From an uncultured bacterium (GTDB taxonomy: Bacteria > Bacteroidota > Bacteroidia > Chitinophagales > CAIODY01), in NCBI GenBank assembly GCA_903857255.1, contig CAIODY010000081.1, forward strand, positions 17,865-81,864: a DNA stretch of 64,000 bases, given 5' to 3'. This document shows positions 2,507-31,648 of the stretch, piece by piece. Numbering within the stretch: position 1 is the stretch's first letter; every line of letters starts with the position of its first letter. Below the pieces are notes generated by a model. It was given only the letters and a program-made list of their open reading frames with translations. It did no database searches and was not told the origin of the DNA. The position numbers and the translations under genes are program-made.

Positions 2507-2968
2507 TTGGTAAAATATTTGCTTCTATTTATTGTTGTTGGCTCTATCTTTTTTGGTTGTAAAAAAGATGCTCAAACTACTGCATTACCTACTACTTCGG
2601 TGATTCCAGCTATTCAATTAATCAGCATCACTCCTACTTCGGTTCATCAATTTACTGACTCGATAAAATTTGATATCCAATATATAGATGGCGATGGAAA
2701 TGTAGGTGATTATAGTGCCGATTCTACCTCGTTAATTATTATTGATAATCGAAATAGTGCACTGGTCAATAAATTTCATATTCCACCTGTAACACCACAA
2801 GGTAGCAGCATTGAGGTGCAAGGCGAATTTATTGCGGTGTTAAAATCAATTATTTTGTTGAATAGTTCATCGAGCAGCGAAGCAACAACTTTTTCCATCA
2901 AACTAAAAGACAGAGCTGGCAATTGGAGTAATGTTATCACCACTCCAACAGTTACGATTACGCCATAA
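2507..2968 (+). CDS. Putative lipoprotein of unknown function
   Basis: A 153-residue protein starting with TTG. The first 18 residues form a lipoprotein signal peptide ending in the lipobox IFFGC, then KKD. The mature part is a Ser/Thr-rich beta-strand domain with an acidic stretch (YIDGDGNVGDYSADS, about residues 57-71), which resembles the calcium-binding-type loops found in Bacteroidota surface lipoproteins; that reading is inference. An ATG at 2490 is in another frame and stops after seven codons (MKIKTSW). With one extra T at 2507-2508 that ATG would lead in frame into the lipoprotein (MKIKTSLVKYLL...), so a start-proximal frameshift is an alternative to TTG initiation. Followed 18 bases later by dxr. 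Confidence 0.7.
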   Translation: MVKYLLLFIVVGSIFFGCKKDAQTTALPTTSVIPAIQLISITPTSVHQFTDSIKFDIQYIDGDGNVGDYSADSTSLIIIDNRNSALVNKFHIPPVTPQGSSIEVQGEFIAVLKSIILLNSSSSSEATTFSIKLKDRAGNWSNVITTPTVTITP

Positions 2969-2986
2969 CAAAATCAATCGCATCAT

Positions 2987-4135
2987 TTGAAACACATAGC
3001 AATTCTTGGAAGCAGCGGCAGCATTGGAACACAAGCATTAGAGGTAGTTGAAGCTCATCCTGATGAATTTTGTGTTGAAGTTTTAACTGTCAATTCCAAC
3101 GCCGAATTATTGATTGCTCAAGCAAAAAAATTTAAGCCCAATGCAGTTGTAATTGTTGATGAATCAAAATATCAATTGGTTAAAGATGCTTTGCAAAACG
3201 ACATGATAAAAGTGTTTGCTGGCGAAGCAGCTTTGGAACAAATTGTTCAAATGGATTCCATCAATATTGTTTTAACTGCTTTAGTTGGTTATGCAGGCTT
3301 GAAGCCCACGATAGCAGCCATTAAAGCAAAAAAAATGATTGCTTTGGCAAACAAAGAAACATTGGTGGTGGCTGGAAAATTGATTACACAATTAGCACAA
3401 GAAAATGGGGTAAATATTTACCCAGTTGATAGTGAACACTCTGCCATTTTTCAATGCTTAGCTGGTGAATGGGAAAATAAAATTGAGAAGATTTATTTAA
3501 CTGCAAGTGGCGGTCCTTTTTTGGGTAAAGATGTTGAATTTTTAAAGTCAGTAAAAAAAGAACAAGCACTCAAACATCCAAATTGGACAATGGGCGCAAA
3601 AATCACAATTGACTCTGCAACATTGATGAATAAGGGATTAGAGGTGATTGAAGCCAAATGGTTATTCAATTTAAAAGCCGAACAAGTGGAGGTTATTGTT
3701 CATCCACAAAGTATCATTCATAGCTTGGTTCAATTTGAAGATGGCAGCATGAAAGCACAAATGGGTTTGCCTGATATGAAACTACCCATTCAATATGCAT
3801 TAGGTTATCCGCAACGCTTAAAAAGTATTTTTCCTCGTTTCGATTTTACTAAATATCCGCAATTAACTTTTTCACAACCCGACACCAAAACATTTCGCAA
3901 TCTGGCTTTAGCATACGATGCCATGCGGCTTTGCGGCAATATGCCGTGTGTGATGAATGCAGCCAACGAAATTGCAGTAGATGCTTTTTTGCATGATAAA
4001 ATTGGATTTATAGAAATCACTAAATTGATTGAAAACAGCATGAATTCTATCACTCACATCAAAAATCCATCGTTGAATGATTACATTGAAACCGATAAAG
4101 AGAGCAGAATTAAAGCGTTAGAAATGCTTGGTTAA
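2987..4135 (+). CDS. dxr: 1-deoxy-D-xylulose 5-phosphate reductoisomerase
   Basis: Catalyses the NADPH- and metal-dependent rearrangement and reduction of DXP to 2-C-methyl-D-erythritol 4-phosphate, the committed step of the MEP isoprenoid pathway. The N-terminal nucleotide-binding motif is GSSGSIGTQ (residues 8-16). Other family landmarks are ALANKETLVVAG, the metal-site segment PVDSEHSAIFQC, TASGGPF, HPNWTMGAKITIDSATLMNKGLE and VHPQSIIHSLV. The length of 382 is normal. The start is TTG; no ATG fits the N-terminal motif. ispF of the same pathway lies at 22589-23080, not linked. The last 18 bases overlap the end of the convergent permease gene. Confidence 0.95.
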   Translation: MKHIAILGSSGSIGTQALEVVEAHPDEFCVEVLTVNSNAELLIAQAKKFKPNAVVIVDESKYQLVKDALQNDMIKVFAGEAALEQIVQMDSINIVLTALVGYAGLKPTIAAIKAKKMIALANKETLVVAGKLITQLAQENGVNIYPVDSEHSAIFQCLAGEWENKIEKIYLTASGGPFLGKDVEFLKSVKKEQALKHPNWTMGAKITIDSATLMNKGLEVIEAKWLFNLKAEQVEVIVHPQSIIHSLVQFEDGSMKAQMGLPDMKLPIQYALGYPQRLKSIFPRFDFTKYPQLTFSQPDTKTFRNLALAYDAMRLCGNMPCVMNAANEIAVDAFLHDKIGFIEITKLIENSMNSITHIKNPSLNDYIETDKESRIKALEMLG

Positions 4136-5452
4136 TGTTTCTTTCCAATAAAAAATCACAACGCCAATTAAAATCATTGCGGCTGCGCCTGCGATATATT
4201 TTACATCCGAAGTGCAAAATACAAACAACCAAATCAGCATAGAAAGAAGCACGGGTAAGGGAAACAACGGCATTTTAAATGGAAACAATTTTCGAGTTCC
4301 ATTTTTATTCAACCAAATTAATCCAACTGATTGACTTAAAAATTGCGTTAAAATTCTTACAACAACAATCGCACTCAGCACATCTGTTAATTTAAACAAC
4401 AAGCTGAAACCTGCGCCAGCAATGGCTAACCAAAGCAATGCCATTTTCGGGATTTTCTTTTTCGCATCAATTTCTGAAAACAGTTTAATGAAATTTCCAT
4501 CGGCTGATGCGGCATACAAAACCCTCGAATAGCCTAACATCACTGCAAAAAGCGATGATAAGGCTACCCATAAAATTAACAACGTAAACCATTTTGCCAC
4601 ATTTTCGCCCAACCATTTTTGCATCAAAGTGCTGAATACAAATGGAGAATTTGCAGCCACATCATTGCTCAAATTCCCCAACACAACAGTTTGCAAAAGC
4701 AAGTACAGCAGCGCAATTCCAAGCACCGACAGCAACATACTCATCGGAATATTTCGTTTCGGATTTTTTATTTCAGCACCCAAATGACAAACATTGTAAT
4801 AGCCCAAATAACAGTAAATGCTTTTCACAGTTGCTTGTCCTAAAACCATCCAAGCACCAAACGACAGAAAATCGAAAGTAATTTTTGGTTGTTGATGAAA
4901 AATATTTTTGTCGAAATGAAAAATGCCCATTCCGATAATGATAAACAATATCGCCAAAACACCTAACCACAAAGCCTTTGACAATTTTCCTGTGGAAACA
5001 ATATTTCTGTTCAACAAAAAATAAAGTGCCGCAATTAATAAAACACAAACCAATTTTTGTTGCCACCAAAATGGCATCGGCACTAAATATTGAAAGTATT
5101 GCGAAAAGCCAATTGCACCCGAAGCTACTACCAATGGGGCTTGTATGGCGGTTTGCCAAGTGTAAAGAAATGAAAATAATCGTCCGAATTTTTTACCAAA
5201 AATAATTTTCAAAAATTGATAACTACCACCAGCTTCGGGATAAGCTGCGCCCAATTCGCTCCAAACCAAACTATCTAAAATGGCTAACAATGCGCCCAAA
5301 AGCCAAGCCAGCAAAGCGTTTTTGCCAGGCATCGATTGCATAATTAATGGCAAAGTTACAAACGGACCGATGCCCACCATATCAATCATATTCAATGATA
5401 CAGCTTCTGATAAGCCGAGCTTGCGTTGCAGTGTTGGTGAGGTTTCGGGCAA
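4118..5452 (-). CDS. APC-superfamily amino acid permease
   Basis: A 444-residue membrane protein with about 12 hydrophobic segments. The N-terminal GLSEAVSLNMIDMVGIGPFVTLPLIM matches the APC TM1 region with its helix-breaking GIG motif, and SELGAAYPEAGGSYQFLKIIFG is the conserved TM2-loop region of the family. Likely an inner-membrane secondary transporter for amino acids or related amines; the substrate cannot be read from the sequence. The start codon is TTG (MPETSPTLQRKLG). It ends 18 bases inside the 3' end of dxr (tail-to-tail) and starts 7 bases after the PIG-L gene, with which it probably forms an operon. Confidence 0.9.
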   Translation of the reverse strand: MPETSPTLQRKLGLSEAVSLNMIDMVGIGPFVTLPLIMQSMPGKNALLAWLLGALLAILDSLVWSELGAAYPEAGGSYQFLKIIFGKKFGRLFSFLYTWQTAIQAPLVVASGAIGFSQYFQYLVPMPFWWQQKLVCVLLIAALYFLLNRNIVSTGKLSKALWLGVLAILFIIIGMGIFHFDKNIFHQQPKITFDFLSFGAWMVLGQATVKSIYCYLGYYNVCHLGAEIKNPKRNIPMSMLLSVLGIALLYLLLQTVVLGNLSNDVAANSPFVFSTLMQKWLGENVAKWFTLLILWVALSSLFAVMLGYSRVLYAASADGNFIKLFSEIDAKKKIPKMALLWLAIAGAGFSLLFKLTDVLSAIVVVRILTQFLSQSVGLIWLNKNGTRKLFPFKMPLFPLPVLLSMLIWLFVFCTSDVKYIAGAAAMILIGVVIFYWKETLTKHF

Positions 5453-28285: not shown

Positions 28286-31200
28286 TTACACCACCACATT
28301 AATCATTCTGCCTTTTACAAAAATGAATTTCTTCATAGGTTTGCCTTCCATAAATTTCTGAATAGTAGCATCCGCTAATACAGTAGTTTCTATATCTTTT
28401 GCATCAGCATCTAACGCAAACTCCATATTGATACGCGTTTTGCCGTTGATAGCAATGGGATAACTGAATGAATTTTCAACCAAATATTTTTCATCGTGGG
28501 TTGGAAATGGCGCATCAATCACACTGTTTTTGTTGCCGATTTCCTTCCACAAATATTCAGTGATGAATGGCGCAAATGGATTTAATAAAACGAGCAAAGG
28601 CTCTAAAATGCTGCGTTTGTTGCATTTCATCGCTTGCAATTCGTTTACACAAATCATAAACTGACTAACGCAAGTATTGTAAGCCAACTTCTGAATATCG
28701 GCATCAATTTTTTTGATGGTTTGGTGCAAGATTTTTAATTCTTCGTTCGTTGGTTCTGCATCGCTCAAAGTCAATTTATCTTCGGTAAAAAATAAATTCC
28801 AAAACTTGCGTAAGAAGCGACTTACGCCTTCAATGCCTTTGGTATCCCAAGGTTTGCTTAATTCTATTGGGCCTAAAAACATTTCATACATACGGAAAGT
28901 ATCAGCACCGTATTGAGCAATCATGTCATCTGGATTGACAACATTGTATTTCGATTTGCTCATTTTTTCGACAACTGGAAGTAATTCAACTTTGTCTTCT
29001 GAAATTTCAAAGGCTTCAATTCCTAACTTTGAACAAATTTCTTTCGTTAGAAAATTGACATTACCAAATCTTGGATGCGTATTCTTTAACTCCTGTAATT
29101 TTTCTTTTGTCAAATAATACTTACCTCCATTAAATTCAGCAAAATCAATTGGAATATGAATTAGAATATCATCTACTGGCAATTTTTCCAAGAATCCTTT
29201 ATCGATAAATACAGAAATTATATTTTCAACTTTATTTGAATCAGGATTATAAATACCTCCATCAAAACTAATACTAGGTATGTTACGAACCATCATACTA
29301 ATCCCTTGTATCATCCCCTGATTCACCATTTTCTTAAATGGCTCATCGAAATTGATGAAACCTAAGTCGTGCAATACTTTCGTCCACATACGGCTGTACA
29401 ACAAATGCCCAACTGCATGTTCGCTACCTCCATTATAAAAATCAACAGCACCCCAGTATTTCATCGCTTCTTCATTCACAAATGCTTTGTCTTCTTGCGG
29501 ACTCATATAACGCAAGAAATACCAACTGCTGCCAGCATAACCAGGCATGGTGTTGGTTTCTAAGTTTTTGTCCGTCCATTCTTTTATGTTTGCTAAAGGT
29601 CCTTGTCCTTCGGGGCCAGGCGAATACGAAGCCACATGTGGCAAGGCTAAAGGTAATTCATTTTCGGGTAAAGTTTTCGCAATTCCGTTTTCATAATAAA
29701 TTGGGAAAGGCTCACCCCAATAGCGTTGGCGGCTGAATCCTGCATCTCTCATGCGGAAATTTATTTTTCGTTGCCCAATATTTTTTGCTTTAATTTCTTG
29801 CAATATTTTTTGTGTGGCAGTTTTGTAATCCATGCCATTTAAAAAATCGCTGTTGCACAATGTTGCTGTTTTTTCTTCGTAACATTTTTCAGCAATATCG
29901 ATGCCTTCAAAAATATTAGGTTTGTCAATTTCAAAATGAGTAGCAAAAGCATAATCACGGCTATCGCCAGCCGGCACCGCCATGATAGCGCCTGTACCAT
30001 AACCATTCAACACATATTCGCTAACATAGATGGGAAGCGGTTTTTGAGTGAATGGATGCAAAGCAAAAGCACCCGTAAAACAACCTGTAATTTTCTTTTC
30101 AGCCATGCGTTCCAAATCGCTGCGGCTTTTTACATAAGCCACATATTTTTCGATTTCAGCTTTTTGTTCGGCAGTTGTAATTTGATTGACCAAATCATTT
30201 TCGGGCGCAACAACCATGAACGAACAACCGAAAATTGTATCAGGACGGGTTGTGAAAACTTCTACTGACCTCACCCCATTGGAAAGATTGAAACTTGTGC
30301 CAGCCTCATTTGACCTCACCCCCTGCCCCCTCTCCAAAGGAGAGGGGGTGGTTGCCTCCGATTGTAATGCTGTTTTTATTTTTTGAATTACGACTTGTAA
30401 ATTATTTTTTACTTCCTCATTTGTAAATCGAATAACCTTGAAACCAGCCAAATTCAAGGCTTCTGTTCTGATTGCATCTTCCTCTTTTTGTTTGAGGTGA
30501 ACTTCTCCATCAATTTCTATCACTAATTTTTTCTCAATGCAAACAAAGTCAACAATGAATTTTTCAATGGCATGTTGCCTGCGAATTTTAAAACCCAACT
30601 GATTATTTCTAACAGCTTCCCAAATTATTTCTTCGGTTTCAGTTTGATTTTTTCTCAACTCACGAGCAATTGGTTTTAATGCTTCAAATGTTTTAGCATC
30701 TGTAGTTTCATAACCATAAGGTTCAGTATTTGAAGGCGATTGTATTGCCCCCTCTCCTTTGGAGAGGGTTGGGGTGAGGTCAAAACGAATTGATGCTCCT
30801 TCACTTCTTCCAATCCAATTGCGTTGCATTTCTTTCATAGGTTCGCTCCAGTCAAGCGTTTCAAGTCCTTGTAATAATCTATCGGCATATTCAGTAATTC
30901 TTAAAAACCACTGACGCATTTTCTTTTTCACCACAGGATGTCCGCCACGTTCGCTAACACCATTCACCACTTCATCATTCGCCAACACAGTTCCTAAAGC
31001 TTCACACCAATTCACTTCCGCATCAGCCAGATAAGCCAGACGGAATTGCATTAAAATATCAGCTTGTTGCTTTTCTGAAAATGATTTCCATTCAGCTGCT
31101 GAAAAACTATTTTCGATTTTTGATTTTTGATTTTTGATTGAACAGCCAATAGTTTCAAACTTTGAAATCAAAGTAGAAATATGTTCTGCTTTGTTGGTTT

Positions 31201-31648
31201 CTGGATTGTACCATGAATTAAAAATTTGTAAGAAAATCCACTGTGTCCATTTGTAATATTTTGGGTCGGAAGTTTTGAATTCACGGCTCCAATCGTAACT
31301 CAAACCAATTTTATCTAACTGCTCACGATAACGGGCAATATTTTTTTCGGTTGTAACCGCAGGATGCTGACCAGTTTCAATAGCATATTGTTCGGCAGGT
31401 AATCCAAAGGCATCATAACCCATTGGGTGCAATACATTGAAGCCTTTATGGCGCTTGTATCGAGCATAAATATCAGAAGCAATGTAGCCCAGTGGATGCC
31501 CTACGTGCAAGCCTGCGCCGCTTGGATAAGGAAACATTTCGAGCACATAATATTTGGGTTTATCGCTTTTGTTTTCAACACGATAAATATTTTTTACAGC
31601 CCAAAGCTTTTTTACTTCTTGTTCAATATTTGCAAAATTCAATTTCAT
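28286..31648 (-). CDS. leuS: Leucyl-tRNA synthetase with in-frame DUF559 domain
   Basis: Charges tRNA-Leu. 1120 residues, roughly 170 more than the Bacteroidota norm (about 930-950, from memory). The catalytic motifs are intact: PYPSGAGLHVGH (40-51, HIGH) and KMSKS (895-899). The CP1 editing domain begins at WIGRSEG (278-284) and its Thr-rich motif TTRPDT is at 466-471. The extra segment sits exactly between these: residues about 290-461, with a DUF559-like nuclease core (about 325-427; VDF Asp367, IEIDG Glu378 and Asp380, then His384). It is flanked by repeat-encoded peptides (TPTLSKGEGA; TPSPLERGQGVRS). The segment has no methionine, so no ATG start for separate translation. Residues 169-182 are encoded by a 7-bp tandem repeat. 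Confidence 0.95.
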   Translation of the reverse strand: MKLNFANIEQEVKKLWAVKNIYRVENKSDKPKYYVLEMFPYPSGAGLHVGHPLGYIASDIYARYKRHKGFNVLHPMGYDAFGLPAEQYAIETGQHPAVTTEKNIARYREQLDKIGLSYDWSREFKTSDPKYYKWTQWIFLQIFNSWYNPETNKAEHISTLISKFETIGCSIKNQKSKIENSFSAAEWKSFSEKQQADILMQFRLAYLADAEVNWCEALGTVLANDEVVNGVSERGGHPVVKKKMRQWFLRITEYADRLLQGLETLDWSEPMKEMQRNWIGRSEGASIRFDLTPTLSKGEGAIQSPSNTEPYGYETTDAKTFEALKPIARELRKNQTETEEIIWEAVRNNQLGFKIRRQHAIEKFIVDFVCIEKKLVIEIDGEVHLKQKEEDAIRTEALNLAGFKVIRFTNEEVKNNLQVVIQKIKTALQSEATTPSPLERGQGVRSNEAGTSFNLSNGVRSVEVFTTRPDTIFGCSFMVVAPENDLVNQITTAEQKAEIEKYVAYVKSRSDLERMAEKKITGCFTGAFALHPFTQKPLPIYVSEYVLNGYGTGAIMAVPAGDSRDYAFATHFEIDKPNIFEGIDIAEKCYEEKTATLCNSDFLNGMDYKTATQKILQEIKAKNIGQRKINFRMRDAGFSRQRYWGEPFPIYYENGIAKTLPENELPLALPHVASYSPGPEGQGPLANIKEWTDKNLETNTMPGYAGSSWYFLRYMSPQEDKAFVNEEAMKYWGAVDFYNGGSEHAVGHLLYSRMWTKVLHDLGFINFDEPFKKMVNQGMIQGISMMVRNIPSISFDGGIYNPDSNKVENIISVFIDKGFLEKLPVDDILIHIPIDFAEFNGGKYYLTKEKLQELKNTHPRFGNVNFLTKEICSKLGIEAFEISEDKVELLPVVEKMSKSKYNVVNPDDMIAQYGADTFRMYEMFLGPIELSKPWDTKGIEGVSRFLRKFWNLFFTEDKLTLSDAEPTNEELKILHQTIKKIDADIQKLAYNTCVSQFMICVNELQAMKCNKRSILEPLLVLLNPFAPFITEYLWKEIGNKNSVIDAPFPTHDEKYLVENSFSYPIAINGKTRINMEFALDADAKDIETTVLADATIQKFMEGKPMKKFIFVKGRMINVVV
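30311..30348 (+). repeat. Terminal repeat, left copy, with perfect internal palindrome
   Basis: TGACCTCACCCC then the palindrome CCCCCTCTCC-AAA-GGAGAGGGGG at 30326-30348. It encodes TPSPLERGQGVRS on the minus strand. Inverted relative to 30748-30782. Confidence 0.85.
30748..30782 (-). repeat. Terminal repeat, right copy
   Basis: Reverse complement reads TGACCTCACCCC-AA-CCCTCTCC-AAA-GGAGAGGGGG, matching the left copy apart from the spacer. It encodes TPTLSKGEGA in leuS. Confidence 0.85.
31115..31139. repeat. 7-bp tandem repeat (GATTTTT) in leuS
   Basis: Three full GATTTTT units plus GATT, within the coding region for IKNQKSKIEN (about residues 171-180), a loop in the Bacteroidota-type extension. 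Three units are 21 bases, so the frame is kept; gain or loss of one unit would break leuS. Confidence 0.85.

Follow-up and report, generated by a model that had tools for sequence, protein, structure and literature searches.

A DUF559 nuclease domain between inverted hairpin repeats lies in frame in leucyl-tRNA synthetase and other Bacteroidota proteins as a probable mobile element

Mobile elements that settle in essential genes are generally assumed to require splicing, as in introns and inteins, if they are to be harmless. The cassette analyzed here resembles inteins in that an in-frame nuclease is found in conserved, often essential proteins, is patchily distributed, is translated together with its host, and has empty alleles in relatives. 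In contrast to inteins, the cassette has hairpin DNA ends and no splicing domain by Pfam, and intein identity was rejected on the latter ground. REPtrons are similar in a different respect, with the gene of a DNA-acting enzyme located between inverted tag-plus-hairpin repeats and with lone repeat copies at further places in the genome; REPs located inside genes have been documented (PMC3733652). However, a REPtron encloses a Y1 (HUH) transposase and has the tag GTAG or CGTC, whereas the cassette encloses a DUF559 nuclease, has the tag TTTGACCTCACCCC, and as a whole sits in frame inside host proteins. With regard to the enzyme, a profile of 22 embedded domains (A1) matched 3hrl with an E-value of 1.5e-33, which makes the embedded domains and the DUF559/Vsr-like nucleases (PF04480) one fold family by sequence, and it matched the mobile-intron protein 3r3p, which we take to be the EDxHD homing endonuclease I-Bth0305I, with an E-value of 1.9e-6. 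I-Bth0305I is associated with a group I intron and has an extended DNA-binding region (PMC3943268), whereas the cassette has the nuclease domain only, in frame and with hairpin ends.

Insertion sequences are characterized by inverted ends together with a target-site duplication; the cassette has inverted ends, and no clear duplication was seen in the empty-site alignments examined. The DUF559 family itself is listed in Pfam as being of 'unknown function', with no role assigned. Rickettsia palindromic elements (RPEs) are not known to carry a nuclease, whereas the two-hairpin form of the cassette encloses one. RPEs are palindromic repeats located in frame in protein genes (PMC3733652), and they are matched by lone hairpins of our element that are likewise inserted in frame, as in the PurH gene described below. 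The element thus has REPtron-like ends, an intein- or homing-like lifestyle and an RPE-like lone form, but no enclosed Y1 transposase and no splicing domain by Pfam, which are defining features of REPtrons and inteins, respectively. No description of such an element was found in the open-licence literature, and an account elsewhere is possible.

The cassette was found in a 64,000-nt stretch of DNA, referred to here as the window, within a leucyl-tRNA synthetase (LeuRS) gene of 1120 codons on the reverse strand (28286-31648). The sequence-only reading had described an extra block at about residues 290-461 with a DUF559 core, an open reading frame that never breaks, flanking inverted copies of a palindrome-containing repeat, and the TTRPDT motif of the LeuRS editing domain a few residues past the block, and all of these descriptions held. 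The gene is open throughout as a single frame of 1120 aa, and residues 290-461 (30266-30781, reverse strand) are flanked by LeuRS domains in a Pfam scan of this protein. DUF559 (PF04480) was located at residues 325-428 (30365-30676, reverse strand) with an E-value of 1.3e-34 and 118.8 bits against a cut-off of 20.6, and includes the conserved residues E339, D367, E378, D380 and H384. The TTRPDT motif (residues 466-471; 30236-30253, reverse strand) lies directly behind the block, the two being separated by four residues (VEVF). No splicing (Hint) domain was found around the nuclease by Pfam, where the matches were LeuRS, DUF559 and one weak nuclease family. The claim that the block has no Met was correct for the window, where residues 290-461 contain none, but not as a general rule, since the domain is Met-free in 125 of 229 embedded copies and has Met in 104. 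The gene with the insert is the only full-length LeuRS match in the window's genome (G000). The database protein P0001 is identical to LeuRS residues 76-1120; it is listed as the window's own protein and therefore provides no independent support for the insert.

When this LeuRS was aligned with the solved LeuRS 7nua, the alignment broke at query residue 296 and restarted at 460 (chain residues 242 and 251, respectively), which places the inserted block in a short loop ahead of TTRPDT. A structure model of LeuRS with the insert was predicted from an alignment of 40 homologues, with a mean pLDDT of 73.5 and a pTM of 0.58. In this model, host strands at residues 281-291 and 461-466 flank the block, which folds as a compact alpha/beta unit (block mean pLDDT 64-83, residues 331-430) with linkers at 294-318 and 432-459 that both have pLDDT below 50. 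As a prediction, the inserted nuclease unit is a tethered passenger on LeuRS.

The ends of the cassette combine a tag, TTTGACCTCACCCC, with a hairpin, CCCTCTCC-NNN-GGAGAGGG. In the coding sense, the 5' end repeat (30748-30784) contains the hairpin at 30748-30768 and the tag at 30771-30784, while its inverted copy, the 3' end repeat (30309-30348), contains the tag at 30309-30322 and the hairpin at 30328-30348. Both pairs of inverted arms, 21 nt long for 30328-30348 and 30748-30768 and 14 nt long for 30309-30322 and 30771-30784, are 100% identical, and each 21-nt arm contains one hairpin stem. Single-strand folding of the cassette ends gave a z of -2.3 for one end (4 of 200 shuffles as good) and only -1.3 for the other (19 of 200). 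The tag is doubled at the 3' end (30266-30322), with the copies 45 nt apart; the outer copy, TGACCTCACCCCA (30266-30278), has no hairpin and may be a relic of an earlier insertion.

End repeats were also scored across the loci by alignment of each left flank to the reverse-complemented right flank, which covered 89 of the 92 embedded copies and 16 of the 20 free-standing ones. A score of at least 15, a threshold of our own choice, was reached by 61 of the 89 embedded and 12 of the 16 free-standing copies, as compared to 1 of 89 and 1 of 16 for control flanks taken 350 nt further out. The other 28 of the 89 embedded copies have no clear inverted ends at this threshold. The sequences of tag and hairpin vary between lineages, and the layout, with the tag outside and the hairpin inside, is often constant. 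No clear target-site duplication was seen in the empty-site alignments examined.

The empty site that the sequence-only reading had proposed to look for in LeuRS of close relatives was found in four of the five family relatives. The loop at the insert site is short in both alleles of G002 and in G003, G004 and G005, and one of the G002 alleles is 92.6% identical to the window over the 840 nt up to this site. The LeuRS gene of the fifth relative, G001, ends at a contig end right at the insert site and was not counted as empty. The empty sites, together with cassette swaps between sister genomes (see below), led us to reject an ancient fixed fusion. A chimeric assembly is unlikely, because the same architecture recurs in many other genomes from unrelated assemblies, including a one-contig genome of 4.1 Mb (G320, locus L037) and the isolate Cellulophaga baltica DSM 24729, whose LeuRS contains a cassette (L103). 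Two further LeuRS proteins, P0014 and P0018, come from near relatives of the window's organism and are 78% and 71% identical to that of the window, respectively. Their cassettes are 82% identical over 173 residues, have matching flank peptides and form sisters on the element tree (support 99), and they occupy two different LeuRS sites, one at site A and one at site B.

DUF559 was found in 182 of 395 genomes of the class. Among the best 150 DUF559 matches, 81 are located in open frames of at least 300 aa, and 70 in frames of at least 600 aa. The copy collection comprises 231 proteins with 249 copies and 239 distinct domain sequences; these copies are not all independent, as the collection holds the window's own protein twice and some loci equal some of the proteins. 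One protein source provided 120 listed matches of 688 from a LeuRS query with a length window, and LeuRS is over-represented in the collection for this reason; another source provided the best 80 of at least 579 matches. Altogether, host assignment of 226 copies yielded 22 kinds of host gene and 32 gene-site combinations across Bacteroidota, and 215 of these copies are flanked on either side by over 60 aa of open frame. Pfam scans of examples confirmed the aminoacyl-tRNA synthetases LeuRS (two sites), IleRS and ValRS as hosts, and also MetH, methylmalonyl-CoA mutase, RecG, RecJ, acetyl-CoA synthetase, MazG, a CoA-transferase, a DegT aminotransferase, two epimerases, a MiaB-like enzyme and type ISP restriction proteins. 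A mutase-MeaB fusion seen by Pfam is presumably IcmF. In guanylate kinase, IspF (YgbB), amino-acid kinase and histidinol dehydrogenase, all assigned by Pfam, the domain is near one end of the host. Three putative hosts, HsdR (L036), PurL (L047) and an MTase (L030), were named by inspection.

Two or three nuclease copies are present in 17 of the 231 proteins. Paired copies within one protein are 97% identical in P0005 and 79% identical in P0023, and the MetH protein P0002 has three copies, all of which looks like the result of recent doubling. In four loci of Bacteroidales and Prevotella (L110, L111, L119 and L132), the domain has its own Met nearby and is fused N-terminally to guanylate kinase, IspF or amino-acid kinase. 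The free-standing DUF559 members have their own Met.

The nuclease domain is well conserved among the embedded copies. T30, E33, W37, D85 and N104 (domain numbering) are invariant in 229 copies, D61, E72 and D74 are kept in 228 of them, and H78 is kept in 227. Codon comparisons place the nuclease under purifying selection, with dN/dS between 0.03 and 0.20 in nine of eleven pairs, the other two pairs being one saturated and one identical.

The element tree was built for 228 representatives of the 248 copies with at least 95 residues, and with few columns it has many weak forks. The host-site label changes 62 times on this tree, compared to a possible minimum of 33 and a shuffled mean of 123.8, which points to site-specific lineages with repeated jumps between genes; gain and loss look alike in these counts. 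Loop 4 of MetH was surveyed in one genus of 36 genomes, with loci obtained for 30 of them, and 9 genomes have it occupied, 1 has a part-deletion, 24 are empty or scarred, and 2 were left unscored. Whether a locus was full I, full II, deleted or hairpin was decided by inspection, and L173, which was scored as empty, keeps a tag remnant. On the MetH host tree, which covers 27 of the 30 loci (L160, L163 and L180 were missed by the search pattern), occupancy switches 8 times, and each cassette type shows the same scatter as labels after shuffling. An in-frame part-deletion of the cassette was observed in L161, and a lone hairpin-like scar was left at the MetH site in L167, L171 and L179. The sisters L153 (G410) and L157 (G421) have 97% identical MetH proteins and metH DNA that is about 95% identical (0.954 over 2000 nt on the left and 0.941 over 507 nt on the right), including 39 identical nt up to the left junction and 51 identical nt from the right junction. 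Their cassettes at this same loop are only 45% identical. The differences between close relatives require gain, loss, replacement and change of site, while the direction of the individual changes is what we infer. The earlier proposal of a small mobile unit that enters essential genes in frame is well supported by the element tree, the MetH occupancy, the cassette swaps, and the P0014 and P0018 pair.

A genome search for palindromes flanking DUF559, also suggested beforehand, found the pattern CCTCTCCNNNGGAGAGG at 18 places in G000, 13 of them exact and 5 with one mismatch, two of the 18 being the cassette's own ends. The reversed control pattern was found at 0 places in the same genome. Eight of the other 16 places are inside open frames of at least 387 aa, and in-frame lone hairpins occur in genes with GcpE, GH92, AICARFT/IMPCHase (PurH) and kdo-transferase domains. 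Empty sites were sought for two of these eight, PurH and the kdo-transferase. PurH has 505 aa in G000 compared to 495 aa in both same-genus genomes, G001 and G002 (96% identical), and the hairpin makes up the additional 30 nt; in G002, the kdo-transferase gene is likewise 30 nt shorter at the hairpin position. The exact pattern occurs 13 times in G000, 0 to 3 times in each of 39 relatives, and 0 to 62 times per genome in the genus of G225. In the latter genus, 0, 0, 0, 0 and 6 hairpins were counted in the five genomes that lack a DUF559 match, and the other 31 have more (p = 0.006), where absence was judged from match lists and some genomes are incomplete. Since hairpin number also tracks Y1, with more hairpins in the 29 Y1 genomes than in the 7 without Y1 (p = 0.036), another enzyme may be the mover, and an action of DUF559 in trans on the lone hairpins is suggested at most.

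The association with Y1 would be expected if the nuclease were a passenger, that is, if REP-like hairpins were mobilized by a Y1 (RAYT) transposase and a pair of them around DUF559 behaved as a composite unit. The tag and hairpin, inverted at both ends, indeed resemble REPtrons, and G000 has one Y1-like gene (184 aa, Y1/RAYT-like; positions 494-1211 of L205, G000:C134:9300-10900). However, this gene is bracketed by an inverted repeat of its own, unlike the DUF559 hairpin, and of four genomes that match DUF559 but not Y1, three have hairpins (0, 5, 7 and 19). The purifying selection on the nuclease and the scarcity of hairpins in genomes without a DUF559 match also disagree with a passenger role. 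On this genomic evidence the case for a Y1/RAYT transposase as the mover is weakened, and we consider the passenger explanation improbable.

Classical homing would leave the nuclease at the center, cutting an empty allele into which homologous repair then copies the cassette, with the hairpins as by-products or aids. Copies that cluster by host site on the element tree, the re-occupation of the same MetH loop by different cassettes, and the distant match of the embedded domains to 3r3p are all consistent with homing. On the other hand, copies have moved into unrelated genes and to a second site of the same gene, inverted hairpin ends are unnecessary for homing, and flank co-conversion was not seen in a comparison without power, in which same-type and different-type pairs were alike (ungapped, with elements diverged about as far as their hosts); homing in this form is rather unlikely. 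It is very improbable that the fused nuclease serves the host, for instance as a defence nuclease made along with an essential enzyme. Purifying selection and the presence of some copies in restriction-modification proteins would fit such a service, but the patchy presence among close relatives, the variety of unrelated enzymes as hosts, and the existence of deletions and scars do not.

We consider it probable that the block is a mobile DUF559 nuclease between inverted hairpin repeats, predicted to cut DNA, that inserts in frame into host-protein loops and would remain unspliced in the product. As the window's copy has no ATG of its own, translation of the nuclease would be driven by the signals of the host gene. 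The nuclease would recognize the hairpin-tag ends or the target loop, and repair or strand transfer would next integrate the cassette or just a hairpin on its own. Selection would eliminate insertions that disrupt the reading frame or the protein fold, and an essential host gene would shield the cassette from careless loss, so that losses are proposed to leave in-frame scars. More tentatively, and at somewhat less than an even chance, the cassettes may represent a selfish class that lives translated inside proteins, invades essential enzymes in frame at their loops, and whose nuclease scatters lone hairpins in trans among coding genes, adding peptides and domains to the Bacteroidota proteome.

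The cassette appears to be harmless without splicing, for which it would depend on the compactness of its fold, on flexible linkers encoded by the hairpins, and on loops that permit insertion. If this is true, DUF559 gains a role, and many fused proteins annotated as DUF559 are explained. The cassettes would further provide a route for proteins to acquire whole domains and short peptides, and would point to places in LeuRS, MetH and similar cases where an enzyme is naturally permissive.

Several minor observations were made on LeuRS sequences. A 4891-nt contig of the window's genome (L192, G000:C80) has a partial LeuRS-like frame of 440 aa at 2817-4136 without the editing insert, next to two frames that by inspection resemble phage capsid and protease genes; judged by this neighborhood, it is possibly a small phage-borne LeuRS. 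Within the LeuRS gene of the window, a simple repeat of the ATCAAAAA type at 31115-31145 is translated in frame (residues ~170-178, NQKSKI). The empty LeuRS sites L059, L060 and L061 (G002 and G001) contain other short in-frame repeat-like sequences (TCAGT..., ATTAACAATT...), as if the LeuRS loop were a hot spot for small inserts.
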